64,000 nucleotides of DNA from Denitromonas iodatirespirans (GTDB lineage: Bacteria; Pseudomonadota; Gammaproteobacteria; Burkholderiales; Rhodocyclaceae): contig NZ_JAEKFT010000002.1 in assembly GCF_018524365.1 (NCBI RefSeq), positions 209,349 through 273,348 of the forward strand, read 5' to 3'. The translations under genes and the position numbers were made by a program. Position 1 is the stretch's first letter, and each line of letters opens with the position of its first letter. Shown one piece after another: positions 34,847 through 59,321 of the stretch. The notes below the pieces were generated by a model, which saw only the letters and a program-made list of their open reading frames with translations, searched no databases and was not told the origin of the DNA.

Positions 34847-34847
34847 G

Positions 34848-41406: not shown

Positions 41407-43896
41407 TCAAGGGCGTTGTCGGATGTCGACGCAGCCGACTTCACAGTGGGCGGGGCCATCGTCGCCGGCCGGCCATCTCGCCGATGGCCGGTTGATCGTG
41501 TCAGGCCGCACTTGCTTAGCGTTCCCGGCGGTGGGGGGCAGGAAGTAGGCGAGCGCAGGCAGTAACACGAGCGCGCCGAACATGTTCCACAAGAACATGA
41601 AGGCGAGCAGTAAGCCCATGTCGGCCTGGAACTTGATCGGGCTGAATACCCAGGTCGTCACGGCAATGCCGAGCGTCAGTCCGGTCAGGATGACGATCTT
41701 GCCGGTGGACTGCAGGGCGCGGTAGTACGCCTCGGACAAGCTCATGCCTTCGCGCAGGCGTGCCATGACCACGCTCAGGATATACAACGCATAGTCGATG
41801 CCGATGCCTACGCCGAGCGCGATCACCGGCAGCGTTGCGACCTTCACGCCCATCCCGAGCGCCACCATCAGCGCTTCTGCAAGAACGGATGTGAGCAGCA
41901 GCGGAACGATCGCGACCACCACGGCTCGCCAGGAGCGGAAGGCGACGAAGGCCATCAAAACGACTGTTCCGTAAACCAGCCAAAGCATCGTGCGTGAGGC
42001 TTGCCGCACAACGATGTTGGTCGCGGCGTCGATGCCGGCCGAACCTGCGGCCAGCAGGAACTGCCCGTCCTCACTGTCGTTGGCTTTCGCAAAAGCCTCG
42101 ACATGATTGACCACGCTTGCCAGTGTCTCGGCCCGGTGGTCGCTGAGGAACACGTACATCGTCAAAAGGCTGCAGGCGTCGTTGTACAGGCCGCGAGGCG
42201 CATTTGCGGTGATCGTGTTGACCATATCCTGGTTGGGCAGCATCTCGTACCACCTGGGATTGCCCTCGTTCAGGCCTGTGAGCACACGACGGTTCAGGAG
42301 CGCCAGGGTGTTGGTGGATTCGACCCCGGGCAGCTGCCGCAACTGCCATTCAAGCTCGTCGACCTTGAGTACCGTCTCCACATTGGAGCAATACCCAGCC
42401 GGTGTCTTCACCATCACCGCCAGCACATCGCTGGAAGCGCCGTAGGAGGCATTCACGAAGGCCACGTCGCGGTTGTAGCGGCTGTCGGCGCGCAGCTCCG
42501 GTGCGCCAGGATCCAGGTCGCCGACCGCCAAGTGGGTGCTCACGGCGGCACCCGCGATCAACAACCCGGCACCCGCGGCTACGGTGGCCCCGGCCCAGCG
42601 TCGCGTTGTGAACCGGTCGAGCAGGGTCCACACCGGGTGGCGCGCCACGCCACGCGCACTGGCCGCTTCTGCGCGCAGGCTGCGGGCCGCCGCTGCCGGG
42701 CTCACGCCAGTGTATGAGAGCAGGATCGGCAGCAGGATGAGGTTGGTGAAGATCAGCGCCGCCACGCCGATCGACGCTGCGATCGCGAGTTCGCGGATGG
42801 CCTGGATGTCGATGACCAACAGCACGGCGAAGCCCGCCGCGTCTGTGAGCAGGGCGGTGAGGCCCGCGAGAAAGAGGCGCCTGAAGGTATACCGTGCGGC
42901 CACGAGCCGGTGCGTGCCGCGCCCGATGTCCTGCATGATGCCGTTCATCTTCTGCGCGCCGTGGCTCATGCCGATGGCGAACACCAGGAATGGCACGAGA
43001 ATGGAGTACGGGTCGAGCGTGAAGCCCAGCGTCGGCAGTAGCCCGAGCTGCCACACTACGGCGACCATCGAGCTGGCAACCACCAGCAGTGTCGAGCGCA
43101 GGCATCGGGTGAACCAGAACAACATGGCCGCCGTGATGGCCACGGCCAATGCGAAGAACGTCAGGACTTCGAGCACACCATCGATGAGATCGCCCACCAG
43201 CTTGGCGAAGCCGGTGATATGTATGGTGACGCCTTGAGCCTGGTACTTGGTGCGCAGATCTTCCAGCGATTGAGCAAGTGCGCCATAGTCCAGCGGTTGG
43301 CCCTCGGTATCTTTCGACATCAAAGGCACGAACACGACGCTGGATTTCGCATCCAGCGCGACGAGTTGACCAAGTTCTCCGGAACGGGCGACGTTGGTGG
43401 CAAGTCCTTGCAGGCTGGCGGGCGAACCGTCGTAGCCGTCGGGGATCACCGGGCCGCCTTCCAGGCCGTCTTCGGTCACGCCCGTCCAGCGCGTCGACGG
43501 GGTCCAAAGGCTCTTCATCTGGCGGCGAGCGACGCCGGGTAGCTGGAATATCTCGTCGTTGATCTTGCGCAGCGTCTCCATGTATGCCGCGTCGTAGATC
43601 GATCCTTCGGGATTGGCCACGACCACGCGCACCGCATTGCCCAGACCGTGCAATTCGTTCTGGTGCGCCAGGAAGTTGACGATGTACGCGTGCGACGCGG
43701 GAATCGTCTTTTCGTAGCTCGCGGTGACGCGCAGCTTGGTCGCCTGCCATCCGAGTATGAGCGTGACCAGCAGGCACAGCGCAATCACGATGCCCCGGCG
43801 GTTGAAGATGGCACGCTCGACGATGGAGCCTGAGTTGCGGTCGAAGTCAGCCAGATCCCGGACGACCGGGCTTGCGCCAGCGTTCAGATTGCTCAT
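41407..43896 (-). CDS. RND-superfamily (MMPL/HAE3-type) transporter permease
   Basis: An 829-residue inner-membrane permease. One N-terminal helix (GIVIALCLLVTLILGWQA) is followed by a periplasmic domain, five helices containing the motif FALAVAITAAMLFWF and PFLVFAIGMSHGAQKMNG, then a repeat of the same layout (VALGVGIGIDYALYILSV). This is the single-chain RND exporter type found with DUF1329/DUF1302 proteins. It overlaps the upstream YCF48-like gene by four bases, so it ends a tightly coupled export operon. The cargo is unknown; relatives move hydrophobic compounds. Confidence 0.9.
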   Translation of the reverse strand: MSNLNAGASPVVRDLADFDRNSGSIVERAIFNRRGIVIALCLLVTLILGWQATKLRVTASYEKTIPASHAYIVNFLAHQNELHGLGNAVRVVVANPEGSIYDAAYMETLRKINDEIFQLPGVARRQMKSLWTPSTRWTGVTEDGLEGGPVIPDGYDGSPASLQGLATNVARSGELGQLVALDAKSSVVFVPLMSKDTEGQPLDYGALAQSLEDLRTKYQAQGVTIHITGFAKLVGDLIDGVLEVLTFFALAVAITAAMLFWFTRCLRSTLLVVASSMVAVVWQLGLLPTLGFTLDPYSILVPFLVFAIGMSHGAQKMNGIMQDIGRGTHRLVAARYTFRRLFLAGLTALLTDAAGFAVLLVIDIQAIRELAIAASIGVAALIFTNLILLPILLSYTGVSPAAAARSLRAEAASARGVARHPVWTLLDRFTTRRWAGATVAAGAGLLIAGAAVSTHLAVGDLDPGAPELRADSRYNRDVAFVNASYGASSDVLAVMVKTPAGYCSNVETVLKVDELEWQLRQLPGVESTNTLALLNRRVLTGLNEGNPRWYEMLPNQDMVNTITANAPRGLYNDACSLLTMYVFLSDHRAETLASVVNHVEAFAKANDSEDGQFLLAAGSAGIDAATNIVVRQASRTMLWLVYGTVVLMAFVAFRSWRAVVVAIVPLLLTSVLAEALMVALGMGVKVATLPVIALGVGIGIDYALYILSVVMARLREGMSLSEAYYRALQSTGKIVILTGLTLGIAVTTWVFSPIKFQADMGLLLAFMFLWNMFGALVLLPALAYFLPPTAGNAKQVRPDTINRPSARWPAGDDGPAHCEVGCVDIRQRP

Positions 43897-44987
43897 GGCG
43901 TCACTCCGGAGAGGTTGGCTGGCGCGGAGAATCGCTTCGCGCCTGTCATGCCCACAGCCAGCAGAGCGCCCTTCGGCAGCGACACGAGTGCGGAAGTGGG
44001 CGGAAGTGGTGCCGCGTGCAGCACATGCAGCCGCTCATCGTTGCCCACGCTGACCAGTTGCCCTGCCTGGTTGACCAGGACGACACGGTCGCTGCCAACG
44101 ACCGTGGCGCCCACGAACGAGGCCGGCGCAGCGCCTTCGAGTCGGGACCAAGTGGCGCCCTTGTTGCTTGAGCTAAAAGCATGGCCGCGCAAGCCTGCCG
44201 CGATCACTGTGCCGTTGCTCGTGACCGCCAGGGCGAACCAGCTGCCTTCGTACGGGCTTTGCAGGCGGTGGAAGTTTTTTCCCCTGTCGTCGGAGCGCAG
44301 CAGCAAACCTTGTTCGCCCGCGATGTAGATCGCGTCACCGTCGCGCTCGACGGCGTTGAGGTGCAGCCCCTTCGGGTTGTCCAGACGCCCCATGATGCTG
44401 GTCCAGGTGGCACCGCCGTCGGTCGACTCAAATATCAATCCGTACGCACCGACCACCAGTACGTGTTGCGTGTCGAACGCGAGAATGCCCATCAGGGGCT
44501 TGTCAGGCCCGTCATCGACCAACCACTGTGCCGCCTTGATCCGGCGAGCGTCCTGGCTTCGGCTCGCCTCGGCGAGCGAGGCTTGCGCGAGCGAGCGTCC
44601 GTCAGCCTGCCGCGACCAGGTCTCGCCGCCATCCGAAGTACGCAGGATGACGCCGGCGTGCCCGACGGCCCAGCCGGTGTGTTCATCCGCGAAACGCACT
44701 GCGGCCAGGCTCACGCTGGTAGGTACCGCGCGAGCCTGTCGCCAAGTCACCCCTTGATCGTCCGAAAGGATGATCAAACCGCGTTCGCCGACGGCTGCCA
44801 GGCGCCCCCCCGCCTGGCTGGCTGCCAGCAGCACAGCGTGCTCCGGTGCTCTCACTGTGAGGGCCGCGCGTTCGATCGCCGGCGGCACATTCGCCCCCGG
44901 GAAGGCTGGTAGCCCAAGCAATGTGCCTGCTGCGAACAGCACGGCGCGTGCAGTCACGTGTCCCAGCATCTCAACGCACGCCTTCAC
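43893..44987 (-). CDS. YCF48/HCF136-like beta-propeller protein
   Basis: A 364-residue exported protein with a signal peptide (to about residue 30). Repeated BNR/YCF48 blades are visible: ILSDDQGVTWRQA, LRTSDGGETWSRQ, FESTDGGATWTSI, LLRSDDRGKNFHRL and FSSSNKGATWSRL. These make a seven-bladed propeller, probably in the periplasm. Such proteins recur between DUF1329 and RND permease genes and probably help assemble or link the export complex. Its start overlaps the DUF1329 stop by 17 bases. Confidence 0.87.
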   Translation of the reverse strand: MKACVEMLGHVTARAVLFAAGTLLGLPAFPGANVPPAIERAALTVRAPEHAVLLAASQAGGRLAAVGERGLIILSDDQGVTWRQARAVPTSVSLAAVRFADEHTGWAVGHAGVILRTSDGGETWSRQADGRSLAQASLAEASRSQDARRIKAAQWLVDDGPDKPLMGILAFDTQHVLVVGAYGLIFESTDGGATWTSIMGRLDNPKGLHLNAVERDGDAIYIAGEQGLLLRSDDRGKNFHRLQSPYEGSWFALAVTSNGTVIAAGLRGHAFSSSNKGATWSRLEGAAPASFVGATVVGSDRVVLVNQAGQLVSVGNDERLHVLHAAPLPPTSALVSLPKGALLAVGMTGAKRFSAPANLSGVTP

Positions 44988-46344
44988 CAGCCATGGCTTC
45001 TGGCACGAAGTTGGAATCCGGGAGGCGGGGCGACATTTGCTTGCTGTGCACCTTCACTTCGTTCCCGATCCCGTTCACGTAGTAGGCGCCGCTCTGTAGC
45101 TCGTAGGTCCCCCACGTGAAGCCCACGGTGCCAGGCAGATCGGGCATGGCCATGGGCATCATGAAAGGCATGCGCCAGAGTTGCCCGTTCGCGTCCCAGC
45201 GGTCGGTGAGCACGAAGTTCCAGGTGTCTTCGTCCAGGTAGTAGAGGCTCTTTGTCGATGTATGGCGCTGGCCAGGTTTGAGCACGGCTTCCACCACCCA
45301 GACGCGATGCAGTTCCCAGCGCACATGGTCCGGGTTCAGGTGGTTCGCCTGGACCACGTCGGCGTCCTTTGTGGGCACGAGAATGCGGTTCGCGTTGTAG
45401 GGAATGTACATCTCCTTTTTGCCCACCAGCTTGAACTCGAAGCGATCCATCCGGCCGCCGAAGCCTTCGACTTCATCGAAGCTCACAATGCCGGCAGAAA
45501 ACGGCGTGGGCGTGTCGCAGCAGGCGTTCGGGAGTTTGCGCACCCGGCGCTGCCCCGTGAGGTAGACCCACGTTGCGGACTTGCTTTCATCCACGTTCAG
45601 GTGACCCAAAATGGCTTCGCCCGCGCGGATCGGTGGCCCCGCGTTCAGGGCGCGAACCAGCGAGTACGCGCCGCCGAACGTGTCTGCCGTCATGTCCTTG
45701 TAGTAGTACGGCGAATTCTTTTGCACATTACCGCGCTGAACATGGATGACTTGACCGTTGGCTGTGATCTGGTAGCCATTGGCTTCCAGGTAGGTCGACT
45801 CGCCCTGCCAGCGCAGCAGACCGTTCCACATCGCCTCCTCCCCGGTCTTCGGAATCGGGAATGGGATGCCTCCGAGTGCGCCCTTGGGAAGCGGGCCGGC
45901 ACTGCCTACGTCGAGGCTAGCGCGCGTGGCGTTCTGGAACGTGTTGTCGTACACGTACTGCGGCGCGGCAGCGGTTCGGTGCGTCGGATAGACATCGAGC
46001 CGGAAGGTATCCGGGTACTTCTTGAGCAGGAACTTCAGGCCCTCGGAGAGCTTGGCGGCGTGCGCTTCCATGTTCTTGGCCGTGATCTGCAGAATGGGCT
46101 TCTCGTCGGCAAATGGGTCGGGGCGACGGCCGCCGTTCTTGAAGCCCGGCGTCGGCGTGGTGAGCCCGCCGGTCCATGCGGGAATCGTGCCTTCCTTGTT
46201 GCCAGCCTTCTCCCCGCCGAGCGGCATGAGTTCGGATTTGAGCTTGGCGGCCTCGTCAGCGCTGACGCCGGCGTGAACGGAAGAGCCCGAGAAAGCCACG
46301 AGCGTCGCGGCGGCAATTGTTATCAGTCGGAGTGGTTTTTTCAT
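44971..46344 (-). CDS. DUF1329 (LolA-like fold) periplasmic protein
   Basis: A 457-residue exported protein with a signal peptide ending SVHAGVSADEAAKL. The typical DUF1329 opening is LKSELMPLGGEKAGNKEGTIPAWTGG, with RRVRKLPNACCDTP and a basic C-terminus. The DUF1329 fold is related to LolA/LolB lipid carriers, which fits a shuttle for a hydrophobic molecule across the periplasm (inference). The ATG at 46344 gives the signal peptide a proper lysine-rich start; an in-frame ATG at 46359 is also possible. It follows the DUF1302 gene by 18 bases. Confidence 0.88.
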   Translation of the reverse strand: MKKPLRLITIAAATLVAFSGSSVHAGVSADEAAKLKSELMPLGGEKAGNKEGTIPAWTGGLTTPTPGFKNGGRRPDPFADEKPILQITAKNMEAHAAKLSEGLKFLLKKYPDTFRLDVYPTHRTAAAPQYVYDNTFQNATRASLDVGSAGPLPKGALGGIPFPIPKTGEEAMWNGLLRWQGESTYLEANGYQITANGQVIHVQRGNVQKNSPYYYKDMTADTFGGAYSLVRALNAGPPIRAGEAILGHLNVDESKSATWVYLTGQRRVRKLPNACCDTPTPFSAGIVSFDEVEGFGGRMDRFEFKLVGKKEMYIPYNANRILVPTKDADVVQANHLNPDHVRWELHRVWVVEAVLKPGQRHTSTKSLYYLDEDTWNFVLTDRWDANGQLWRMPFMMPMAMPDLPGTVGFTWGTYELQSGAYYVNGIGNEVKVHSKQMSPRLPDSNFVPEAMAGEGVR

Positions 46345-46362
46345 GGCATTCGTCCTCATGGA

Positions 46363-48105
46363 TCAAAACGTGCGGCGCACGGAGAGTGCAACGAAGTTGC
46401 GGTCCTTCATCGCCTGTCGGTAGCTGAAGTTGTTGTTCGCGTCGAGGAAGTTGCCTTCCGGCCCAAAGAAGTGGGTGTAGGTCACGCTGAAACGCCACAC
46501 ATCCAGGTAGCTGCCATTCACTCCGATATTAAAGTCACCGCCCCCGCTCGCCGGCAACGAGCCGGGGCCCAGTGCCATCGAGCGCGAGCCCTTTGGCGTA
46601 TAGCCCAAACCGATCGGCACTCCGATATCCACTCCGGGTATGACTTGACGATAGGTGGGCTCCAGGACGAAACGCATGCTGACTGCGTCGCGTGTCGCGT
46701 TGGGGTCGACCGCTGTGGGGTTCTTGGTGATCTTGAGGACGCGGTTCCACGCGATTTCGCCAGTGAACGCGGCTTCCCGCCACAACGGGGTAGCCGGAAC
46801 CTGCCACAACGTGGACAGATTTAGGTGCGCCGTTCTGCCGACCGCATACGCTGGTCTGTCGCTATTGTTCGTGGCTGCGCCGCCAAGGGCCTGGGTATTA
46901 ACGGAATTGCTGCTGGCCAAGTCCTGGTTGTGCCGCACCGATACTTCAGCGGCCAGGTTCATCGGTCCGAAGGTGCGGCTCGCGCTGAAGCCCAGCGCCA
47001 TGATGCCCTCATGCCAGGCGAGCTGATAGGTCCGTGGTGCAACCAGCCCGCAAGAAGCCGGTCCGGTCGGGAACGAGCCGGGTACCACGCAGCCGCCGGG
47101 ACCGGCGTGGATCACCGAGCGGACGCCAAGGTTGGCAATCTGTTGAAAGTTTTTGCTGTGAAAGCGCACGAGGTAGATGCCGTAGTCGGTCTCGTCGTCG
47201 TTGAACCGCAGTTGCAGGCCGCCCTGCCCACTGTTCTTCGCGCGCTGGTCCGAGGCGCGAAGGATGTTGCCGTCGAGGAAGGGTCCCCCTTGCGAGGCTT
47301 GGGGAAGCAAGATCTGCTCACCGCCTTCCGGGTTCATGTCTACCGTCGAGAAATAGCTGCCAACGGCCGGCAAGCGGTTGCGATCCCAGCGAAACTGGTA
47401 GTAGGCGCTCAGCGTGACTTGAGGCGCCAACTCGATCTGACCGGAGATCTGCGGGACGGGTCGGGTTGCTTCCTTGAAGGAGGTGTTGGGGACGGACAAG
47501 AGCTTCACCCCGTCAACCGGGCTCTGAGCGCCCCCGATGGCATTGGCACCGAAGAAAAGGCTCTCGCCCCACAGAATGCTGTGCTGCCCCAGGCGCATCG
47601 AGGCCCGCCTGCCGGCAAGTTCAAATCGGCCAAACACGAAGGCATCTAGTACTTCGGCATTGCTGCCATGGATGTCGCGGGTTTTGTCAGTGAACTTGTT
47701 GTAGGGCACCGAAAACTGGTTCGGGGCACCGCCGCCTGCGAATCCAGGGTTGTCGTTCGCTTCGTTGTAAACCGAGTCATACCAAGCGGCTGCGCTGATT
47801 CGGCCACCGAAGTTGCCGCGCTGCACATCCAACTCGCTAAACCAGTCCAGCCGATTCGAGACCAGCCCGCGGTTGAAATTGCGGTTGCCGTCGTCCTCGT
47901 TGGAACTGCCTAGCAAGACAGCGCTCTGCTTGCCGGTTCGCGCGGCGGCGCTGTATTTCACCGTGTTGTCCCAACGGACTCTCAGGTCGGGGTCGCTGGT
48001 TTCGATCATGGCGGCATGTGAGGTTGTCGCCAGAAGGGCGATCGCCGCCGCGAGCGGGCTGCGACGGAATGCCTTCCATTGGGAAGGCGGCTTTTGCACG
48101 TGCAT
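46363..48105 (-). CDS. DUF1302 outer-membrane beta-barrel protein
   Basis: A 580-residue exported protein with an extended signal peptide ending TSHA. The DUF1302 hallmark IETSDPDLRVRWDNTVKYSAA comes next, then many amphipathic strands and a terminal phenylalanine (VALSVRRTF). It is the outer-membrane component of the DUF1302-DUF1329-YCF48-RND set. CCAGGAGAGAGAC gives a strong ribosome site and an operator-promoter stands about 100 bases upstream. It is the first gene of the minus-strand operon. Confidence 0.88.
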   Translation of the reverse strand: MHVQKPPSQWKAFRRSPLAAAIALLATTSHAAMIETSDPDLRVRWDNTVKYSAAARTGKQSAVLLGSSNEDDGNRNFNRGLVSNRLDWFSELDVQRGNFGGRISAAAWYDSVYNEANDNPGFAGGGAPNQFSVPYNKFTDKTRDIHGSNAEVLDAFVFGRFELAGRRASMRLGQHSILWGESLFFGANAIGGAQSPVDGVKLLSVPNTSFKEATRPVPQISGQIELAPQVTLSAYYQFRWDRNRLPAVGSYFSTVDMNPEGGEQILLPQASQGGPFLDGNILRASDQRAKNSGQGGLQLRFNDDETDYGIYLVRFHSKNFQQIANLGVRSVIHAGPGGCVVPGSFPTGPASCGLVAPRTYQLAWHEGIMALGFSASRTFGPMNLAAEVSVRHNQDLASSNSVNTQALGGAATNNSDRPAYAVGRTAHLNLSTLWQVPATPLWREAAFTGEIAWNRVLKITKNPTAVDPNATRDAVSMRFVLEPTYRQVIPGVDIGVPIGLGYTPKGSRSMALGPGSLPASGGGDFNIGVNGSYLDVWRFSVTYTHFFGPEGNFLDANNNFSYRQAMKDRNFVALSVRRTF

Positions 48106-48211
48106 GTCTCTCTCCTGGGCCGTATGCGGCTTATAGTTGGTGAATCACTTCTGATGCCGGTGCGCGTGCTTGCCGCAGGGCAGGCCGAAGCAGGCCGTCG
48201 CACTGGGGGAA

Positions 48212-48281
48212 AGAGTACGGACCTGATTCTGCTCGGCAAAATGGTTTGTTTGGATGGCTTTCATTCACCGGACTTATAGTC
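48212..48281 (-). promoter_or_regulatory. Operator-promoter A for the export operon
   Basis: Read on the minus strand: dyad GACTATAAGTC (48281-48271), second dyad TGAATG-AAAGC-CATCCA, then CCATTTTGCC, and after 18 bases a -10 box TACTCT (48217-48212). The order and spacing are the same as in elements B and C. Transcription would start about 100 bases before the DUF1302 ATG. Confidence 0.75.
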
Positions 48282-48519
48282 CTGGCGGGCGTGTGATCGC
48301 TACTCTGCTGACGAGCGCAGCATCGGTGCACGATGCATTGCTGGTGTCCACGCTAGCGAGCCGGCGCTCGAAAAATGCTTCGCACATGTGGTGCGACGCG
48401 ATAGCCACGCCGCCACTACGGAATTCAAAACTGTGATGTGAAGAGGGTGAGCGAGCCTCACAGTGTCACCACTCTTCCATGGTGCTCGTCGCCGAAACCC
48501 CACAGTCGGAGCGTTCCGA

Positions 48520-48589
48520 GACTATAAGTCCGGTGAATGAAAGCCATCCAAACAAACCATTTGGCCTGGCAGAGGCGGGTTCGTATGCT
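48520..48589 (+). promoter_or_regulatory. Operator-promoter B for the alpha/beta hydrolase
   Basis: GACTATAAGTC (48520-48530), TGAATG-AAAGC-CATCCA (48534-48550), weak -35 TTTGGC (48560-48565), 18-base spacer, -10 TATGCT (48584-48589). The first dyad sits about 65-75 bases before the expected start, as for a LysR recognition site. The weak -35 suggests an activated promoter. Confidence 0.75.
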
Positions 48590-48653
48590 GGAAACCCGGT
48601 GAATGGAACTCTTCACCGATCCACGCCCTTCACAACAAGAATCTATCCAAAAC

Positions 48654-49811
48654 ATGTTTCGCTATTTTCCAACCAACTACGTCTGGAATCTGTCCGTTGA
48701 CCTCGCCATTGAAATGGGCGCGCGCATCGGTGAAATCGAGGAGATGTGCGCACCGTTGCAGGAGGCTGCGCGGCAGCCCGACGCGGCTGGTACGCGGGCG
48801 TTCCGCGAAACCTGGTCAAAAATGGCCGACAAGCTGTGCGGTCTGGCGCAGGAAGACGAGGATCGCAACAGGCTGCTCTCGGCCGGCGAGAAGTACCTGC
48901 GCGCCTCCTCGTACCTACTGACATGCGAACGGCTGCAAGGACACGGCGCGCCCGGCCGCATGGCGCTGTACCAGCGGATGCTGGATACGTTTGCCCGCGG
49001 CATCCTCTTGACTAAAGCGAACTGCGAGCGCGTGGAGATCCCTTATGGCGACACGCACATTGCTGGCCTCTACACGCGGGCCGAGGGGGTGCATGGACCC
49101 GCGCCCGTGCTGGTTCAGGTCAACGGCCTGGACTCCATGAAGGAGATGAAGTTTCTGGTTGGGGAGCCGCAGTGGCTGGCACAGCGTGGCGTCTCGTCAC
49201 TGGTGATCGATCAACCCGGCAGCGGCGAAGCCTTGCGCCTGCACGGCATGCCGGCTGTCTATGACAGCGAGCGCTGGGCCAGCAAAGTCGTCGACTGGCT
49301 CGAACAATGCCCCGAGGTGGATCCAAAGCGCATCGGTCTGGAGGGCGTGTCGCTAGGCGGGTATTTTTGTCCGCGCGCGGTGGCGTTCGAGCCGCGCTTC
49401 GCCTGCGGTGTGGTCATGGGGGCCAACCACGACTGGCGCGACGTGCAGAAGCGCCGCCTGGACAAAGAGGGCGACTTTCCGGTGCCGCATTACTGGGAGC
49501 ATGTGCGCTGGGTTTGGGGTGCGAAAGACATGGAGGAATTCATGCAGATCGCCGAGAACGTGCACCTGGACGGGGTTCTCGACCGCATCCGCGTTCCGTT
49601 CCTGGTGACTCACGGGGAGAAGGACTCGCAGATCCCTTTGAAATGGGCACACCGGACCTATGAGCAACTGGTCAGCAGCCCGAAGCGCGAACTGAAGATA
49701 TTCACCGAGCGCGAGGGGGGTGCGCAGCACGCTTGCTTCGACAACAGCATCAACCCCGGCCATTACATTGTGGACTGGGTGGCGGAAGTGCTGGGCGGTC
49801 GCACTTCGTGA
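48654..49811 (+). CDS. Alpha/beta hydrolase, 2,6-dihydroxypseudooxynicotine-hydrolase-like (C-C hydrolase group)
   Basis: A 385-residue hydrolase with an all-helical N-terminal domain and a C-terminal alpha/beta-hydrolase domain. The nucleophile serine lies in GVSLGGYF (about residue 233), the aspartate in THGEKDSQIP (about 323) and the histidine in GAQHACFD (about 359). This architecture is shared with the nicotine-pathway enzyme that cleaves a C-C bond, and with FrsA-like esterases. An ATG at 48603 would add 17 residues, but it lies only a few bases after the expected transcription start, so 48654 is preferred. It is a single-gene unit under promoter B. It may cleave a ring-fission product or an acyl side chain (inference). 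Confidence 0.83.
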   Translation: MFRYFPTNYVWNLSVDLAIEMGARIGEIEEMCAPLQEAARQPDAAGTRAFRETWSKMADKLCGLAQEDEDRNRLLSAGEKYLRASSYLLTCERLQGHGAPGRMALYQRMLDTFARGILLTKANCERVEIPYGDTHIAGLYTRAEGVHGPAPVLVQVNGLDSMKEMKFLVGEPQWLAQRGVSSLVIDQPGSGEALRLHGMPAVYDSERWASKVVDWLEQCPEVDPKRIGLEGVSLGGYFCPRAVAFEPRFACGVVMGANHDWRDVQKRRLDKEGDFPVPHYWEHVRWVWGAKDMEEFMQIAENVHLDGVLDRIRVPFLVTHGEKDSQIPLKWAHRTYEQLVSSPKRELKIFTEREGGAQHACFDNSINPGHYIVDWVAEVLGGRTS

Positions 49812-50225
49812 AGACCCGGCGGCGCTAGCCTGGAAATTCCGTCAGGGCGCGGATGGATGGGCGTGCAGTGGGCGATGCAGTTCGGACAACAGGCCGCATG
49901 CCGCGGCCTGTTGTCCGATCGTGGCGCACCCCGAATCAGCTTGCCGTAACCCGGATGCAGCGCAGCGGAATCCGGGAACAGCGGTTGATTCGCCAGCGCA
50001 CTTCGAGTTCTGAACGCCTTGCTGGCTCAACCGCCAGCCCCGGCCTCCGGCCTTCGGCCTGCATCCGGGCTACCCTGAACAACTCCCGCGATGGCGCACG
50101 CCAGAGTGCGGCATGGGCGGCAAGGTGCACAATCGCGGCGAAAACGGTGCCATGGCGAGGATATTCAGTGCCGCAGACCGCCCGGCGTCAGGAAGCGCGA
50201 CGCGCGAGGACTTGATTGGCGCGCC
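49812..50225. repeat. Intergenic region with REP-like repeats, no gene seen
   Basis: AACCCGGATGCAGCGCAGCGGAATCCGGG (49948-49976) and CCTCCGGCCTTCGGCCTGCATCCGGGCTAC (50042-50071) are REP-type palindromes in opposite orientation. They share CCCGGATGCAG / CTGCATCCGGG and lie between the convergent hydrolase and LysR genes. Confidence 0.6.
49883..49917. terminator. Hairpin after the hydrolase gene
   Basis: CGGACAACAGGCCGC and GCGGCCTGTTGTCCG form a perfect 15-bp stem around ATGCC, about 70 bases after the stop. There is no T-run, so it may also be part of a repeat. Confidence 0.5.
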
Positions 50226-51134
50226 CTATATCTCGGAGGCGACCTCGCGGCACTGCGCGATCACCCAGCGCAGGGCCGGGCTTGCGTCATACACCCGGTT
50301 CCATTGCAGGTGCTCCACCAAACGTGGAATCTCGACCGGGACCGGCCACAAGCGCAGCGGCAGATAACGTGCGGCACGCACGGCCAGGCGGCGATGCACG
50401 GTCGCCACGCGGTCTGTGCCTACGACGAGTTCGGCGGGAGAGAGCAGACTGTTGGCGACCACCTCGACACGGCGCTCGATGCCATGCAGCGCGAGCAACG
50501 CGGTGTCCGCGGCTGGTGCGCGACCGCCGTCGAAGGACGCAGCCACATGTCCGGCCGACTTGAAGACATCCAGGCCGAGCCCGCCCTTGAATCGTGTGCT
50601 GCCGCTCCATGTCACGCACACGTAATCTTCTTCGAACAGCACGACCTGCGGATGCTGGGGCGAAACGAACTGCAACGGCGTAATCAGCAAGTCCATGTCC
50701 CCGCGTTCCAGGTGCGCAACCGTGTTGGGCCATTCCTGCGCAATGAGCTTGAAGCGCAATCCGGGTGACAGGTGCGCGAGCTTTTGCAGCAGTGGCTGGA
50801 CGAGGACCGAAGTGGTGTAGTCAGAGGCCGACAGCGTGAAGGAGTTCTGCGCACTGGCCGGATCGAATTGCGACGGCGCGACCAAGCGCCCGTCAATCTG
50901 CGAAAGGATATCCTGAAGCGGGCCAATCAGCGCCTCGGCACGAGCAGTCAACAACATGTCGCGTCCGGACCGGACGATCAACTCATCACCGAAATAATCG
51001 CGCAGCCGTGCCAGGGCGTTGCTCATCGCAGGTTGCGACACGAAGACGCGTTTAGCCGCGCGGCTGACGTTCCGCTCCGTGAGAAGCGCATCAAGTGCAA
51101 CCAGCAGGTTCAGATCGAGACCATTGAAGCGCAT
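50226..51134 (-). CDS. LysR-family regulator (NahR/NodD-like branch) of the catabolic island
   Basis: A 302-residue regulator. It opens MRFNGLDLNLLVALDALLTERNVSRAAKRVFVSQPAMSNALARLRDYFGDEL, the winged HTH of the NahR/NodD branch, which typically activates aromatic catabolic genes in response to an aromatic inducer. The effector domain follows to LRWVIAQCREVASEI. It is the only regulator in the island. It is divergent from the dioxygenase operon, and its start lies beside a degenerate copy of the island operator (GACTATA at 51142), suggesting autoregulation. It probably controls operators A-C (inference). Confidence 0.9.
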   Translation of the reverse strand: MRFNGLDLNLLVALDALLTERNVSRAAKRVFVSQPAMSNALARLRDYFGDELIVRSGRDMLLTARAEALIGPLQDILSQIDGRLVAPSQFDPASAQNSFTLSASDYTTSVLVQPLLQKLAHLSPGLRFKLIAQEWPNTVAHLERGDMDLLITPLQFVSPQHPQVVLFEEDYVCVTWSGSTRFKGGLGLDVFKSAGHVAASFDGGRAPAADTALLALHGIERRVEVVANSLLSPAELVVGTDRVATVHRRLAVRAARYLPLRLWPVPVEIPRLVEHLQWNRVYDASPALRWVIAQCREVASEI

Positions 51135-51214
51135 AACGGCGACTATACCTCCGGTGACGGCATGTCGATCGAACGATCAACACATCGTTGAAAGTTTTGC
51201 GCACCCATCCCCGC

Positions 51215-51331
51215 GCGTCGGTCGTCGCGGGTTGCGACAGGAGTGCACGTTTGACCGCAGCAGGCCGACCTTGCGCTTCGATGCAGGCACCTCGTGTGCA
51301 GCCAGCAGGTTCAGATCGGGAGAGTTCAAGT
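51215..51331 (-). pseudogene. Duplicated 5' stub of the LysR gene
   Basis: The stretch is a diverged copy of 51027-51134. GTTGCGACA, CGTTT, CCAGCAGGTTCAGATCG and the start-codon neighbourhood GCATA-CCG-GACTATA all recur in the same order. Read on the minus strand it opens MHLNSPDLNLLAAHEVPAS, echoing MRFNGLDLNLLVALDALL, and then loses the reading frame. The duplication carried the operator along, so element C stands where the stub's promoter region would be. Confidence 0.75.
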
Positions 51332-51340
51332 GCATACCGT

Positions 51341-51410
51341 GACTATAAGTCCGATGAATGCACGTCATCCAAAATAACCATTTCCCGGGGAATCGGCGAG
51401 TCCCTAAAGT
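51341..51410 (+). promoter_or_regulatory. Operator-promoter C for the dioxygenase operon
   Basis: GACTATAAGTC (51341-51351), TGAATG-CACGT-CATCCA (51355-51371), TTTCCC (51381-51386), 18-base spacer, -10 TAAAGT (51405-51410). Same layout as elements A and B. The gene starts at 51444 with TCGGAG as ribosome site. Confidence 0.75.
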
Positions 51411-51443
51411 TCAGTGCAGTCGAACTGCTTTCGGAGCATTGCC

Positions 51444-52376
51444 ATGAAAATTCTCGGACCCGACCTCCTGGTTTTCGGAGTCGACCATGTCCCCGCCTGC
51501 TGCGAGTTCCTCATCGAATACGGGCTCACGCCGGTCGGAGTCACCGACCAGGGTGGTCGATTCGAAGCCATGGATGGCACGGGCGTCTTGATCCTTTCGT
51601 CTGACGACCCTTCGCTGCCACCGGCGCTTTCCAGTGGCAACACGATCCGCGAAACCATCTACGGCGTGCAGGACGCCCAGACGCTGGAGGCCGTGGGGCG
51701 GGAACTGTCGAAGGACCGCGAGGTGCGCAGGGCTGCGGACGGATCGCTGCACTGCACGGACGACCTGGGCTTCGCGATCGCCTTCCAGGTAACCGTGCGC
51801 AAGCCGTACGCGGCGGCGGCGACCCTGACCAACGCGCCTGGCAGCCCCCCGCAACGCGGGCCCAACCAGGTGGCGGTGGACCCGGACGCACAGATCCGGC
51901 CACGCACCCTGTCGCATGTGGTCTTCTTCGTTCCAGATGCGGCGCGCATGGAAGCCTTCTACCACCGGCTCGGCTTCCGGGTGACCGACCGCTTCACCGG
52001 CACGGGTGCCTTCATGCGGCCCGAGGGCAATGCGGACCATCACGCGCTGTTCTTCATCCAGACGCCGCCGTTCATGCAGGGCTGTGAGCATTTCGCCTTC
52101 CACCTCGGCGGCCCGTCGGACGTGATACAGGCCGGTTCGCGGTTGGTGGCGAAGGGATACCAGTCGTACTGGGGCCCCGGGCGACATATCTTCGGCTCCA
52201 ACTGGTTCTGGTATTTCAACAGTCCGATGGGCGTGCATGTGGAGTACGACGCCGACATGGACTTGCACGACGACGCGTGGACGCCGCGTGAGGCGACGAT
52301 TGGCGCCGACGCTTCACAGCTGTTTCTGATGCAGCATCGAGAGAAGTGGTCGCCAGGCGGCCCACCCCCGGCATGA
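51444..52376 (+). CDS. Two-domain VOC-fold protein, class I extradiol dioxygenase type
   Basis: A 310-residue protein with two vicinal-oxygen-chelate modules: residues about 5-125, degenerate, and about 150-290, catalytic. The metal ligands of the second module appear as His in LSHVVFF (about 156), His in CEHFAFHLGG (about 215) and Glu in VHVEYDAD (about 267). This is the arrangement of Fe(II) extradiol dioxygenases that open catechol-type rings next to the hydroxyls. The exact diol is unknown. It is the first gene of the plus-strand catabolic operon and overlaps the Rieske gene by four bases. Confidence 0.83.
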   Translation: MKILGPDLLVFGVDHVPACCEFLIEYGLTPVGVTDQGGRFEAMDGTGVLILSSDDPSLPPALSSGNTIRETIYGVQDAQTLEAVGRELSKDREVRRAADGSLHCTDDLGFAIAFQVTVRKPYAAAATLTNAPGSPPQRGPNQVAVDPDAQIRPRTLSHVVFFVPDAARMEAFYHRLGFRVTDRFTGTGAFMRPEGNADHHALFFIQTPPFMQGCEHFAFHLGGPSDVIQAGSRLVAKGYQSYWGPGRHIFGSNWFWYFNSPMGVHVEYDADMDLHDDAWTPREATIGADASQLFLMQHREKWSPGGPPPA

Positions 52377-52708
52377 GCGCCGGGACGGTGCTGTGCCGGT
52401 TCGACGAACTTGTCGATGGCGAGGCAAGGGGCTTCGATCCCCAGAAGGGCGGACAGGACACGCTGTTTGGCGTGCGTCGCGGGTCGAGGTTGTATCTGTA
52501 CCGGGACCTCTGCCCCCACGCGACCAGCCCCATGGCCTGGCGCAAAGATGAATACCTCAACCGCAGGCGCGACCGCATCGTGTGCTTTGCGCACGGCGCG
52601 CAATTCGAAATTGAGACAGGGCGTTGCCTGCTCGGACCTTGCATCGGGCAATCGCTGCAAGCGGTGGCACATGCCATAGACGACCGAGGCAACGTGAGAT
52701 TGGTGTGA
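52373..52708 (+). CDS. Rieske [2Fe-2S] ferredoxin
   Basis: A 111-residue single-domain Rieske protein with the cluster motif CPH (about residue 42) and CFAHG (about 67). Spacing and the small size fit a ferredoxin that passes electrons to a ring-hydroxylating oxygenase. It overlaps the dioxygenase stop (ATGA) and lies 13 bases before the first flavoprotein. It could serve the VanA-like oxygenase 3.5 kb downstream, which has no reductase gene beside it. Confidence 0.86.
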   Translation: MSAGTVLCRFDELVDGEARGFDPQKGGQDTLFGVRRGSRLYLYRDLCPHATSPMAWRKDEYLNRRRDRIVCFAHGAQFEIETGRCLLGPCIGQSLQAVAHAIDDRGNVRLV

Positions 52709-52721
52709 GAAAGGATTCACT

Positions 52722-53849
52722 ATGACAACCGTAAACAAAGTGCTGGTGGTAGGTGGCGGCTTTTCGGGTACGTGCGCGGCCATTCAGATGCGCAAGCTGG
52801 GCATTGAGGTGGATCTGGTCGAAATCGACCGCGACTGGCGAACGTACGGCGCGGGTATTACGCTCAGCGGCGTGACGCTGCGTGCGCTCAACACGGTCGG
52901 CGTGCTGCCGCAGTTCATGGAACGCGGCTACGGCTCCGACGGCGTGGACCTGTTCACGCCGACCGGCATGCTGATGGCAACGCTGCCCACGCCACGCGTC
53001 GCCGGCCCGCAGGTGCCCGGCAATGGCGGCATTTTGCGCTCGGCCCTGTGCCGTATCCTGGCCGATGCCACACGTGCCAGCGGGACGAATGTGCGGCTGG
53101 GCGTGACCTTCACGTCTTTGATGCAGCAGGCCGATGGTGTGAACGTGTCTTTCGACGACGGCAGCACCGGCACTTACGACCTGGTGGTGGGGGCCGACGG
53201 GCTGTTCTCCCAGACGCGGCGTGCGCTGTTTCCGGACGCACCGGCGCCCGTCTTCAGCGGGCAGGGTGTGTGGCGTGCCGTGCTGCCGCGCCCCGCTTCC
53301 GTGAAGCGCCTTGCCATGTACATGGGAGAGCGCACCAAGATCGGATTCAATCCGGTGTCGCAGGAACAGATGTACATGTTCGTGACCGAAGAGCGCTCGG
53401 TGAACGCCCGCGTACCGGAAGAGCAGCTCGTGCCTCAGCTGCAGGCCCTTCTTGAGCCCTTTCCCGCGCCCTTGTTGCGGGATGTGCTTGCCGCACTCGG
53501 TCCCGATTCCAGCGTGGTCTATCGCCCGCTTGAGCTGCTGCTGTTGCCGCAGCCCTGGTCCCGGGGGCGCGTGGTGCTGATCGGCGACGCCGTGCACGCC
53601 ACCACGCCGCACTTGGCATCGGGTGCGGGCATGGGTATCGAGGACGCGATCGTGCTGGCTGAGGAAATCGGCCGCGACGTCGGCGTGGGCGAGGCGCTGG
53701 AGCGCTTCGAAAAACGTCGCTGGGAGCGCTGCCGCATGGTGGTTGAGAACTCGCGGCATCTCGGCGAGATCGAGGCCACCGGCGGCTCGAAGGAAGAACA
53801 TGCGCACATCATGCAGGCGTCGATGGCCGCCCTGGCCATGCCCATCTGA
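52722..53849 (+). CDS. FAD-dependent aromatic monooxygenase (first copy)
   Basis: A 375-residue group A flavoprotein hydroxylase. The dinucleotide fold is VLVVGGGFSGTCAAIQM (residues 6-22), the DG motif lies in VVGADGLFSQTR (about 160) and the GD motif in LIGDAVHATTPHLASGAGMGIEDA (about 287). Relatives such as salicylate or 6-hydroxynicotinate hydroxylases put a hydroxyl on an activated ring using NAD(P)H and oxygen. The substrate is not readable. It is 12 bases before the second, distinct flavoprotein. Confidence 0.88.
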   Translation: MTTVNKVLVVGGGFSGTCAAIQMRKLGIEVDLVEIDRDWRTYGAGITLSGVTLRALNTVGVLPQFMERGYGSDGVDLFTPTGMLMATLPTPRVAGPQVPGNGGILRSALCRILADATRASGTNVRLGVTFTSLMQQADGVNVSFDDGSTGTYDLVVGADGLFSQTRRALFPDAPAPVFSGQGVWRAVLPRPASVKRLAMYMGERTKIGFNPVSQEQMYMFVTEERSVNARVPEEQLVPQLQALLEPFPAPLLRDVLAALGPDSSVVYRPLELLLLPQPWSRGRVVLIGDAVHATTPHLASGAGMGIEDAIVLAEEIGRDVGVGEALERFEKRRWERCRMVVENSRHLGEIEATGGSKEEHAHIMQASMAALAMPI

Positions 53850-53861
53850 ACGGAGGCGCTC

Positions 53862-55073
53862 ATGTCGACTTCTTCAAACAAGCTGACCGCGAAAAAACGC
53901 ATCGCCATTGTGGGTGCAGGGCCGGGCGGACTGTCCGCGCTGATCGCACTCAGCCAGGCCGGCTTCGACGTGCGCCTGTTTGAGCGCCAACCCGAGATCA
54001 AGGCCATGGGCGGTGCCGTGCTGCTGAACCTGCCCGTCATGTGCATCCTGCGCGGCTACGGTGTGGACCTGGAGAACTTTGGAGCCACGGCAAACAGCGA
54101 GTTCCGCACTTCCAAGGGCCGGCTGCGCTTTCGCATTCCCTTCAACGAAGACGCGCAGAAGAAGGCGGGTCTGCCGGGCTGGAACTACGGCATGCTGCGC
54201 TCCACCCTGTATGCGCGCATGCTGCCCTTGGCCCCACCGGGCAGCATCCTGCCCGACCACCGCTTCACGCGCTTCACCGAGGAAGGCGAAACGGTCCGCC
54301 TCCACTTCGACAACGGCAACACCTGGGATGCCGATCTGCTGATCGCCGCCGACGGGAACCGCTCGGCGGTGATGCAGCAGATCCTGGGCGATCTGGGCGT
54401 GTTCCCCCTTGGATTGCAGGTCTGGCTGGGTTGGTGTTACGCCGATTCGCTACCGCGCGACACCAGCATGATCATGCATTCGAGCGACACCCAGTTCGGC
54501 TTCCATCCGATTCTGCACGATGGCCAGCCGGCCTGGGAGTGGTGGATGGTGGAGCGCAGCCGCAAGGGCAACCCTGCGTCAGACAAGGTGGGTGCGTACC
54601 TCCTGCGCCGCCTGAAAGGCTGGGCCGAACCCGTGCCGACGCTGATGGCCGCTACCGACACAAGCAAGATTTTCCGCTGGGAGTTGTTCAATCGGCCGCT
54701 TCTCAAGCAGTGGACGCACGGGCGGGTGACGGCGCTGGGCGACGCCGTGCACCCCACCTCGCCCTACGCCGGCTATGGCGCCGGCATGGCCATCGAGGAT
54801 GGCTATTTCCTCGGCCGCTTCCTGCGCGGCGTGGACCTCTCCGATCGGGCAGCACTCGCTGCCGCGCTCGCCCGTTATGAAGCGCAGCGCGTGGACTACA
54901 CGAACCAAACCGTGATGATGGCGCGGCGACTCGGTCGGCTGTTCCATCAGCTGCCCTGGCCGCTCAGCGCGGTGCGCGACGCGCTGCTGACGCATACGCG
55001 CTTCCCACAGAAATTCATCGTCGAGGATTACTTCAAGAATGCCGAGCAGGAAATGCTCAGCCTTGAGGTCTAA
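53862..55073 (+). CDS. FAD-dependent monooxygenase (second copy)
   Basis: A 403-residue flavoprotein of the same superfamily: IAIVGAGPGGLSALIAL (residues 14-30), the DG motif in LIAADGNRSAV (about 167) and GDAVHPTSPYAGYGAGMAIEDG (about 295). It is not a close duplicate of the preceding one; the sequences diverge outside the motifs, so the two probably act on different intermediates. The C-terminal region is longer and amphipathic. It is part of the dioxygenase operon. Confidence 0.88.
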   Translation: MSTSSNKLTAKKRIAIVGAGPGGLSALIALSQAGFDVRLFERQPEIKAMGGAVLLNLPVMCILRGYGVDLENFGATANSEFRTSKGRLRFRIPFNEDAQKKAGLPGWNYGMLRSTLYARMLPLAPPGSILPDHRFTRFTEEGETVRLHFDNGNTWDADLLIAADGNRSAVMQQILGDLGVFPLGLQVWLGWCYADSLPRDTSMIMHSSDTQFGFHPILHDGQPAWEWWMVERSRKGNPASDKVGAYLLRRLKGWAEPVPTLMAATDTSKIFRWELFNRPLLKQWTHGRVTALGDAVHPTSPYAGYGAGMAIEDGYFLGRFLRGVDLSDRAALAAALARYEAQRVDYTNQTVMMARRLGRLFHQLPWPLSAVRDALLTHTRFPQKFIVEDYFKNAEQEMLSLEV

Positions 55074-55088
55074 CGCTGGGCAAATTCC

Positions 55089-55898
55089 ATGAGCAGAACC
55101 TTCATCGATCTGTCGATCTTTCTGGAGAACGAGATCTTGTCAGACCCTCCGCCACTGGCGCCTAAGATCACCTATGCCAATCACAAGGAAACCCTCCCTG
55201 AGTTCGTGCGCATGATTCCCGGCTGCACCGAGGAGGACTGGCTCGATGGTGAGGCCGCGGCGGCCGAGTGGGTGACGCTGACGACACACAGCGGCACCCA
55301 CCTGGATGCGCCCTACCACTTTCACTCCACCATGGACGCCAAGCTGGGCGGCTCAAAGCCGTCCATCGCGATCGACGAGGTCCCCCTGGAGTGGTGCTTC
55401 CAGCCAGGTGTGAAACTGGATTTCCGGCACTTTCCGGACGGCTACGTGGCGACCGCAGCCGACGTCGAAGCCGAGTTGGCCCGCATCGGCCATGTGCTGC
55501 AGCCGCTGGACATCGTGGTTGTCAATACGCGCGCGGGGTCGCGCTACGGCCATAGTGACTTCGTCAACGCAGGCTGTGGCATGGGCTACGAGGCCACCAT
55601 GTATCTCCTGGAGCGCGGCGTGCGCCTGACCGGCACCGATGCGTGGAGCTGGGACGCACCGTTCTCCTACACCGCCGAGAAGTTTGCGCAGACCGGCGAC
55701 CGCACGCTGATTTGGGAAGGGCACAAGGCGGGACGCGACATTGGCTACTGCCACCTTGAGAAGATGCACAACCTGGAGGCCCTGCCGCCCCACGGGTTCT
55801 ACATCTCTTGCTTCCCCCACAAGATCCGCGCCGCTTCGGCCGGGTGGACGCGCGCGGTGGCGATCATCGACGACGCACTGCTGGCGCTACCTCGCTAG
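55089..55898 (+). CDS. Cyclase-family metal-dependent hydrolase (kynurenine formamidase / isatin hydrolase-like)
   Basis: A 269-residue protein with the metal-binding signature TTHSGTHLDAPYHF (about residue 62) and further conserved histidines in YGHSDFVNAG and WEGHKAGRD. The family includes Mn-dependent isatin hydrolase and bacterial kynurenine formamidase, which open amide or lactone bonds. In this operon it may hydrolyse a lactone, lactam or amide made by the monooxygenases (inference). Confidence 0.85.
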   Translation: MSRTFIDLSIFLENEILSDPPPLAPKITYANHKETLPEFVRMIPGCTEEDWLDGEAAAAEWVTLTTHSGTHLDAPYHFHSTMDAKLGGSKPSIAIDEVPLEWCFQPGVKLDFRHFPDGYVATAADVEAELARIGHVLQPLDIVVVNTRAGSRYGHSDFVNAGCGMGYEATMYLLERGVRLTGTDAWSWDAPFSYTAEKFAQTGDRTLIWEGHKAGRDIGYCHLEKMHNLEALPPHGFYISCFPHKIRAASAGWTRAVAIIDDALLALPR

Positions 55899-55976
55899 GA
55901 GACACGTGAAAGTGAGGTTTCCGCGCAGCGGCGCCCGATCCGAAATCGCCCGTACGGCCCGCATGGTCCCCGTCTT

Positions 55977-56159: not shown

Positions 56160-56187
56160 CCCACTTCTATACGGCAAAGGAACAGAC

Positions 56188-57249
56188 ATGAGCTATTTGC
56201 GCAATACATGGTATGTGGCAGCGATGCACGATGAATTGCCGCCGGGAAGGCTTTTGGCACGGATCTATCTGGATGAGCCTGTCGTTTTGTTCCGCAATGC
56301 CGCTGGCGAGCCTCAAGCCTTGGCTGATCGCTGTCCGCATCGCTTCGCCCCCTTGTCTGCGGGGAAGCTATGCAACGGCGGCGACACGGTCCAGTGCGGC
56401 TACCACGGGCTGCAATTCGACGGCAAGGGCGCATGCACCCACAACCCGCAGGGCGATGGTGGCATTCCAAAAGCTGCCGTTGTTAAGGCCTACGCCGTGC
56501 GTGAACGCCACGGCCTGATCTGGCTGTGGGCCGGCGAGGCGAAGGAGGCCGACGAGAGCCTGATCCCCGACTACAGCGCCGTGACCTCTGCGCACGTCGA
56601 CGGAACGATTCGGGGCTACATGCCGACTGCCTGCAGTGCTGAACTGTTCGTCGACAACATTCTCGATCTCACGCATGTCGATTTCCTTCATCCCACTACG
56701 CTGGGCAGCGGGGCCTTGTCGCGAGCGAAAGCCGTGGTTACCGAACCCAGCGAACGTAGCGTGAAGATCGTCTGGGTGTCCAGCGGAGATGTGGCGCCAT
56801 ATGCTTTTGACATTAATCTGCGCGAACAAGGGCGGCCCACGGACCAATGGACCGAAGTCACGTGGACTGCGCCGTCCACGATGCTGATTCGAGTGGGCGC
56901 GACCTTGCTGGGCGAGCCGCGCGAAGCCGGCGTCGATACACTCAACCTGCATCTGGCGACGCCGGAAAGTGCGGGGAGAACGCACTACTGGTACTGGAGC
57001 ACCAGAAACTTCGGCCTGACGCCGGAAGCGAACGCACAGGCAACGCCCATGGTTGTGAACGTCTTCAAGCTCGAAGACAAGCCGATGCTGGAAGCGCAGC
57101 AGCAGCGCATGGGTACGGCCGATTTCTGGTCGCTCAAGCCCGTGCTGCTGCCGGGCGATGCGGGCGCCGTGCGTGCGCGCCGCAAGCTTAAGGCGCTCAT
57201 CGACGCAGAGGCCTCGGCGGCCACTCCGACTGACGGAGCCGCAGCATGA
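56188..57249 (+). CDS. Rieske non-haem iron oxygenase, vanillate O-demethylase oxygenase (VanA)-like
   Basis: A 353-residue oxygenase with an N-terminal Rieske domain (CPHRFAP near residue 49, CGYHG near 70). The catalytic domain carries the iron ligands in DNILDLTHVDFLH (about residues 156-168). It begins YLRNTWYVAAMHDELPPG, which is the VanA-type opening. Relatives remove O-methyl groups or hydroxylate aromatic acids and need a reductase such as VanB. None is encoded here. Its stop overlaps the start of a 45-residue open frame. Confidence 0.88.
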   Translation: MSYLRNTWYVAAMHDELPPGRLLARIYLDEPVVLFRNAAGEPQALADRCPHRFAPLSAGKLCNGGDTVQCGYHGLQFDGKGACTHNPQGDGGIPKAAVVKAYAVRERHGLIWLWAGEAKEADESLIPDYSAVTSAHVDGTIRGYMPTACSAELFVDNILDLTHVDFLHPTTLGSGALSRAKAVVTEPSERSVKIVWVSSGDVAPYAFDINLREQGRPTDQWTEVTWTAPSTMLIRVGATLLGEPREAGVDTLNLHLATPESAGRTHYWYWSTRNFGLTPEANAQATPMVVNVFKLEDKPMLEAQQQRMGTADFWSLKPVLLPGDAGAVRARRKLKALIDAEASAATPTDGAAA

Positions 57250-57383: not shown

Positions 57384-57440
57384 CCCATGCGATATGTCGG
57401 TCTGACCCTACCTCCTCCATCGTGACCAAGGGCACATTCA

Positions 57441-58436: not shown

Positions 58437-58461
58437 TCCGTCGTCTGCCACCGGGTTCCGG

Positions 58462-59276: not shown

Positions 59277-59321
59277 TCGCCCCGGCGCCTGTTCCTGCCT
59301 CTCCTTTTCGGTAGCCTTTTC

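Follow-up and report, generated by a model that had tools for sequence, protein, structure and literature searches.

Three predicted nod-box-class operator-promoters and a NodD-like LysR gene in a flavonoid-degradation-type cluster of Denitromonas iodatirespirans

Introduction

A 64,000-nucleotide stretch of the genome of Denitromonas iodatirespirans (contig NZ_JAEKFT010000002.1, positions 209,349 to 273,348 of the forward strand; hereafter the window) holds three similar 70-base sites, A, B, and C, each facing a gene start, together with a gene for a LysR-type regulator. This arrangement raises the question of which regulator would act on the three sites, to which signal it would respond, and how one locus came to hold several copies of one element. 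Our analysis suggests that A, B, and C are operator-promoters of the nod-box class, and we consider it quite probable that they are bound by the NodD-like LysR protein encoded at the locus, which would switch on flavonoid-degradation-type genes in the presence of a plant flavonoid or a related aromatic compound.

Results

The initial annotation had read the window as holding three copies of one LysR-type operator-promoter, one ahead of each of three gene groups, and a pattern search of the window found every copy at the place and on the strand given there (Table 1), so that the sequence supports three operator-promoter-like sites of this type. A search of the window for GACTATAAGTC gave exactly three matches, at 48271-48281 (-), 48520-48530 (+), and 51341-51351 (+), and TGAATG-N5-CATCCA is found with zero mismatches in sites A, B, and C only. 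Over a core of 43 bases, A and B are identical (43/43) and each shares 37/43 positions with C; over the whole 70 bases, identity is 61/70 for A and B, 49/70 for A and C, and 51/70 for B and C. Sites A and B form an inverted pair, whose likeness stops inside the -10 region. A scan of the whole genome (5,176,345 bases in 201 contigs) for further members of the set, which had been proposed as a check and was run with the 20-mer GACTATAAGTCCGNTGAATG at up to three mismatches, returned A, B, and C and no other site, and the reversed 20-mer returned no match under the same limit. Across 101 genomes (our own and 100 relatives), the 20-mer was found at up to two mismatches outside D. iodatirespirans in one congener only (G003, a single match with two mismatches); this match was rejected as a further box, since the rest of the box does not come after it.

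Aligned with rhizobial nod boxes, the three sites share with them an ATCCAAA core, an ATTT tract, and a pair of AT-N11-AT half-sites with a 22-base period. We built a 48-position matrix from eight boxes taken from rhizobial plasmids only, five of which lie directly upstream of nodA or nodB and three elsewhere or in unannotated surroundings. With this matrix the top three sites of the window were A (38.7), B (29.2), and C (22.5), the next site scored 10.3, and the maximum over 30 simulated windows was 12.0. A profile of the same eight boxes, run on the whole genome, recovered sites A (expectation value, E = 6.5e-4) and B (E = 0.008); the 48-position match is thus above chance by the matrix for all three sites and by the profile for A and B only. 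A third genome-wide profile match (G000:C2:247455, E = 0.0085) was rejected because it lies inside long open frames; its surroundings are 78-85% identical in three relatives, in which the profile matches the same stretch too. In addition, a blind blastn search with site B against 72,556 plasmids (E limit 10) matched ten records. Three rhizobial plasmids (of R. jaguaris, S. mexicanum, and S. chiapasense) match over box positions, and in the two of these three that were inspected, the match lies about 590 and about 20 bases upstream of nodD2; another R. jaguaris record and three R. phaseoli records match over shorter stretches, and two Borrelia matches and one Martelella match look like chance.

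We assign A, B, and C on their sequence to the nod-box class, a kinship that the initial annotation had missed. The nod box has been defined by palindromic ATC-N9-GAT motifs (PMC5596368), and the three sites do not carry these motifs in exact form, the first reading ATA-N9-AAT and the second ATC-N9-CAT; both motifs are exact, by eye, in only three of the eight rhizobial boxes. For this reason we speak of a class and not of canonical nod boxes. Like the rhizobial nod box and NodD regulon, the locus shows two half-sites of the AT-N10-GAT type with a 22-base period, a ATCCAAACAA core (in A and B), and a box close to a divergent NodD-type gene (here box C and the LysR relic described below). Unlike that regulon, the genes are catabolic and transport genes and not nodABC, the third half-site letter is A or C here and A or G in the eight rhizobial boxes, and the -10 hexamer stands at offset 62, whereas four of the eight rhizobial boxes have TAGAA(A/G) at 63 and none has TANNNT at 62. 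The literature surveyed describes no flavonoid-degradation cluster with a nod box outside the rhizobia, and a report of this kind may exist.

Each box combines its two half-sites with a TANNNT hexamer at a fixed distance, and the best -10-like hexamer lies at site positions 65-70 in all three (Table 1); the hexamer of site A, TACTCT, ties at 3/6 with two other hexamers. If transcription is assumed to start 7 bases past the -10, the half-site centres fall at -65 and -43. Activators of the LysR type usually have half-sites near -65 and -45 and act at promoters with a poor -35. The spacing had been called identical and the -35 boxes poor: the former agrees with the shared place of the hexamer here and in relatives (see below), and the latter is in line with a sigma-70 scan of 48000-51600, which found no promoter with at least 9/12 matches and a spacer of 16-18 bases. 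The 18-base spacer claimed between CCATTT and the -10 has to be corrected to 21 bases, as CCATTT occupies positions 38-43; a spacer of 18 holds only with the -35 set at positions 41-46 (TTTTGC/TTTGGC/TTTCCC).

Similar boxes are present at related loci. We took as close non-nod relatives the 24 LysR genes with a bit score of at least 205 (a cut drawn after the table had been seen, with L069 left out as a duplicate of L054), and counted a box where a site in the 250 bases upstream of the LysR gene was unequalled in 100 simulated regions. Such a box was found in 11/24 close relatives vs 0/24 more distant ones. Together with the box before the hydrolase gene of Massilia phosphatilytica (L004) and a box of Paraburkholderia hospita, these gave 13 non-rhizobial boxes, whose downstream bases, unused by the 48-base matrix, were searched for TANNNT. 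This hexamer stands at offset 62 in 10 of the 13 (8/11 before those of P. hospita and Burkholderia anthina joined the set); elsewhere between 49 and 110, each offset has it in at most one box. Several of the boxes are sister pairs in the tree, so that they do not amount to 13 independent cases. Sites A, B, and C have TANNNT at offset 62 as well. A 67-base matrix made from the 13 relatives, with nothing from the window, again put A (32.4), C (27.6), and B (27.5) at the top of the window; the next site scored 13.6, and the maximum over 20 simulated windows was 4.2.

With the own box of each locus left out of the matrix and a cut-off of 20, the 20 related loci, some of which hold only part of the cluster, have one site in 14 cases, two sites in two (Massilia putida, L040; L100 of genome G407), and none in four; the window has three. 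Twelve of the 14 single boxes occupy the gap next to the LysR gene; the other two (M. phosphatilytica; Roseomonas, L075) precede the hydrolase gene, like site B. In Diaphorobacter, a single box in the LysR gap is followed by a series of genes (DUF1302-DUF1329-hypothetical-MMPL-hydrolase-VOC-Rieske-FAD-MFS-cyclase-cupin-FAH).

Some loci showed other box-like sites. Upstream of three more distant LysR genes of metagenome-assembled genomes (MAGs; L009, L014, and L016) there are weak sites that 1/100 simulated regions equalled, and the box class may be wider than the close relatives. M. putida (L040) has a pair of similar sites, at 7483 and 15777 (-), whose core differs (AACGGTTTT); they scored 23.4 and 15.0 and precede DUF1302 and a flavin adenine dinucleotide (FAD) oxidoreductase gene, and they may be another instance of operator multiplication, serving a different LysR protein. 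The second site of L100, at 3296 (-), scored 26.2 and lies before YCF48-MMPL. Elsewhere in genomes G407 and G236, near 1501 of L064 and L067, matches to the 3' half of the nod box (E = 0.047 and 0.18) are possible further regulon members.

An alignment of the LysR protein with NodD1 over 291 residues shows 39% identity, with 36/60 identical positions in the helix-turn-helix. The closest relatives of the LysR protein in a search of 5.8 billion proteins are 84% and 76% identical, and several further ones carry the source name "nod box-dependent transcriptional activator". The PDB entries that match it best in sequence are full-length regulators of the LysR type, labelled in the table as regulatory proteins, which we take to be DntR/NahR-like. 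The genome encodes two other LysR proteins at E <=1e-30 (33% and 31% identical), and no box was found upstream of their genes by the 250-base, 100-simulation criterion.

In a quick tree, from which eleven loci were left out by name and others by length, all 18 box-bearing rows, the window and six NodD included, fell into one 28-row clade (Shimodaira-Hasegawa-like approximate likelihood ratio test, 86). The Denitromonas LysR is not itself a member of the NodD group: in a second, careful tree limited to a list of 39 loci, the six NodD rows form a group of their own (100/100) without it, and it lies in the same 29-row clade. The quick tree suggests that NodD is nested among regulators that we called catabolic from their neighbours or kinship, not from function. 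The careful tree supports this nesting weakly, and a single group made up of the catabolic rows is not rejected there (approximately unbiased test, p 0.501); an origin of NodD inside the catabolic group is a possibility.

A LysR of this kind (E <=1e-70) was found in 4/395 genomes of the family and in 4/399 of the order sample, our own included in both counts, and in none of nine congeners. The distribution of the cluster is patchy, and horizontal transfer may have occurred. The G+C content of 42000-60000 is 0.61-0.65 in 2-kb steps, vs 0.68-0.70 from 60000 and at 38000; values of 0.60-0.63 recur at 32000-36000, so that composition alone does not mark an island.

A degenerate fourth copy of the box had been placed at the start of the LysR gene. 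Here the alignment holds over the first 17 bases only (remnant D; Table 1), and what comes after is a decayed LysR coding remnant: 51161-51357 aligns with the 5' end of the LysR gene and its upstream bases with a score of 160, the maximum of 300 shuffles being 36. We rejected the fourth copy as an autoregulatory operator, given its in-register operator score of -25.5 and the relic that begins at 51161. The duplicated 5' end of the LysR gene would have decayed beside box C, and the intact gene would have kept just the start of a box and would therefore not be autoregulated through a full one. The nodD genes of three rhizobia start 4-7 bases from their boxes, and the distance from LysR start to box is 11-16 bases in Cupriavidus and two Bradyrhizobium and 50-92 in most other relatives. 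Since the relic starts 8 bases from box C, this box may hold the ancestral position of the LysR promoter.

The gene groups behind the sites are listed in Table 1. The group behind site A had been called an export operon; its four products make up a predicted envelope transport set, which may work in either direction. The start of the hydrolase behind site B is uncertain, and among the 20 plasmid homologues listed, 11 align from residue 16-18 of the longer open reading frame (ORF) and nine from residue 8-10. Much of the gene set recurs on plasmids of B. anthina, Azospirillum, Diaphorobacter, P. hospita, M. putida, and Pseudomonas. In these six plasmid clusters, clear homologues are 44-83% identical: the hydrolase (59-80%) and the VOC protein (59-66%) occur in all six, the cyclase (59-83%) in five, the transport genes in three, and a close homologue of FAD-dependent monooxygenase 2 (48%) in one.

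The edge of the cluster holds a gene for an AraC-family regulator with a cupin domain (39192-40166, -), a possible second regulator, next to a flavin-reductase gene (38671-39162, +). A PEP-CTERM protein with a weak spondin-N match (40200-41111, -) also flanks the cluster.

Table 1. Predicted sites and genes of the locus, in window coordinates.
Feature	Position	Strand	Remarks
Site A, predicted operator-promoter of the DUF1302-DUF1329-YCF48-MMPL group	48212..48281	-	nod-box register 48231-48278; -10 TACTCT 48212-48217
Site B, predicted operator-promoter of the alpha/beta hydrolase gene	48520..48589	+	nod-box register 48523-48570; -10 TATGCT 48584-48589
Site C, predicted operator-promoter of the VOC dioxygenase group	51341..51410	+	nod-box register 51344-51391; -10 TAAAGT 51405-51410
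Remnant D, start of a fourth box (first 17 bases), ahead of the intact LysR gene	51141..51157	+	matches A and B at 15/17 positions (by eye)
Duplicate of the LysR 5' end (codons 1 to ~60), decayed and frameshifted	51161..51335	-	ATG 51333-51335, 8 bases from box C
LysR-type regulator, NodD-like, 302 residues	50226..51134	-	
DUF1302 protein, first gene behind site A	46363..48105	-	
DUF1329 protein, behind site A	44971..46359	-	
YCF48/BNR-repeat protein, behind site A	43893..44987	-	
MMPL/RND-family transporter, behind site A	41407..43896	-	
Alpha/beta hydrolase, behind site B	48654..49811	+	start codon uncertain; longer ORF 48603-49811
Extradiol-dioxygenase-like protein of the VOC family, first behind site C	51444..52376	+	
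Rieske ferredoxin-like protein, behind site C	52346..52708	+	start codon uncertain
FAD-dependent monooxygenase 1, behind site C	52722..53849	+	
FAD-dependent monooxygenase 2, behind site C	53862..55073	+	
Cyclase-family protein, behind site C	55089..55898	+	80-83% to clusters L036-L039
VanA-type Rieske oxygenase	56188..57249	+	without own box; perhaps part of site C group
Fumarylacetoacetate hydrolase-family (FAH) protein	57441..58436	+	without own box; perhaps part of site C group

Two described systems resemble this locus. The fde operon of Herbaspirillum is activated by FdeR, which leaves a footprint of 60 bp and has naringenin, chrysin, and daidzein as ligands (PMC10799723). In the naringenin degradation system of H. 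seropedicae, as here, a NodD-like LysR activator adjoins a flavonoid-degradation operon. Several T-N11-A boxes are reported there, and the system is described with a single fdeR-fdeA promoter region, in contrast to the three boxes found here (PMC10799723); our sites have six or seven T-N11-A boxes each. The isoflavone catabolism (ifc) cluster of Variovorax sp. V35, which is daidzein-induced, encodes the FAD monooxygenase IfcA, which makes 8-hydroxydaidzein. It also encodes an alpha/beta hydrolase, a relative of 2,6-dihydroxypseudooxynicotine hydrolase, and a glyoxalase that has 65.8% identity to FdeC (PMC11069340). An FAD monooxygenase, a glyoxalase-type dioxygenase, and an alpha/beta hydrolase likewise stand beside the NodD-like LysR gene here, which gives the locus an fde-type gene set by protein family and kind of gene, not by comparison with fde sequences. 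Unlike our locus, the ifc cluster has no described operator, and the main text of PMC11069340 contains neither the word LysR nor the word promoter. From the ifc and FdeR systems we infer, by analogy, that the substrate here is likely a flavonoid or isoflavonoid.

Discussion

The boxes stand ahead of gene groups that resemble flavonoid-breakdown clusters, and the NodD-like regulator therefore likely serves the use of flavonoids and not nodulation. In the genome of D. iodatirespirans, the NodA family had no match (0/1, with rhizobial control records positive in 2/2) and NodC had a best match of 27% over 129 residues, which is partial, so that symbiosis is an unlikely target. In the mechanism that we propose, the LysR protein encoded between the sites would bind A, B, and C, a tetramer holding both half-sites of a box; a flavonoid ligand would alter this complex, and RNA polymerase could then use a promoter without a -35. 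The groups switched on would be predicted envelope transport (A), a C-C hydrolase (B), and a ring-opening dioxygenase with hydroxylases (C).

Several results weigh against this interpretation. Thirteen of the 24 close relatives show no box upstream of LysR by the 100-simulation count, at six of the 24 distant LysR genes just one or two simulated regions of 100 scored as high as the best site, and no box was found at Acidocella loci encoding enzymes of the same kinds. The eight-box profile did not recover site C, in the window or in the genome; it also missed every box of the six plasmid clusters and that of M. phosphatilytica, so that these boxes rest on the matrix, and it recovered the L054 box weakly (E = 0.032). 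At the cut-off of 20, the 67-base matrix also matches 6/21 negative loci, two of them in MAGs (63-64% G+C) and four in Legionella (39-40% G+C), so that it is not specific in AT-rich DNA. An AraC-type regulator gene also flanks the cluster, and the substrate is assigned by analogy, the comparison with fde having been made by protein family and kind of gene.

The sites could instead be ordinary operators of a catabolic regulator of the NahR/LinR kind, their likeness to nod boxes being a convergence on AT-rich half-sites. T-N11-A is common to LysR operators (PMC5002191), the six or seven such boxes per site would fit this explanation, and so would the full-length LysR-type regulators among the best PDB matches. 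Convergence of this kind would, however, have to extend over 48 positions and exceed all 30 simulated windows; the blind search with site B led to boxes upstream of nodD2, and the same criterion finds no box at any of the 24 distant LysR genes. We regard convergence as unlikely.

Recognition of the repeat by another protein, for example the AraC-type regulator at the cluster edge, with the LysR gene nearby by chance, seems to us very improbable. The position of that AraC/cupin gene next to a flavin reductase speaks for it, but 11/24 close relatives, in which no AraC gene was searched for, carry the box in the LysR gap, and the 8 bases between box C and the relic LysR start are close to the spacing at nodD in three rhizobia, against 50-92 in most non-rhizobial relatives. 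Hardly credible at all is the idea that the repeats are mobile or recombinational and play no part in regulation: the presence of three similar copies together, two of them inverted, might suggest it, yet A and B cease to be alike within the -10 region, every copy points at the start of a gene, and homologous boxes have the same -10 offset in 10/13 other loci.

Returning to operator-promoters of a NodD-like regulator, the presence of three copies has a plausible origin. A, B, and C share TATAAGTCCG(G/A)TGAATG, which by eye is in none of the boxes of relatives, so that they are most simply copies of one box. The operator-promoter would have been copied as the gene order split, which would have kept the groups co-regulated. 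A broader proposal, which we advance tentatively and with more doubt than conviction, is that the nod box was not an invention of symbiosis but the standard promoter of widespread flavonoid-eating operons, that rhizobia recruited regulator and box together, and that here the switch was copied to three groups when the operon broke up.

Taken as predicted here, the locus would tie the legume-nodulation switch to flavonoid use in bacteria without nod genes and would show a likely route from one operon to three groups under one regulator. Its 67-base signature of two half-sites and a -10 could help to find such regulons in GC-rich genomes, and the sites are candidate promoter parts for flavonoid sensors.

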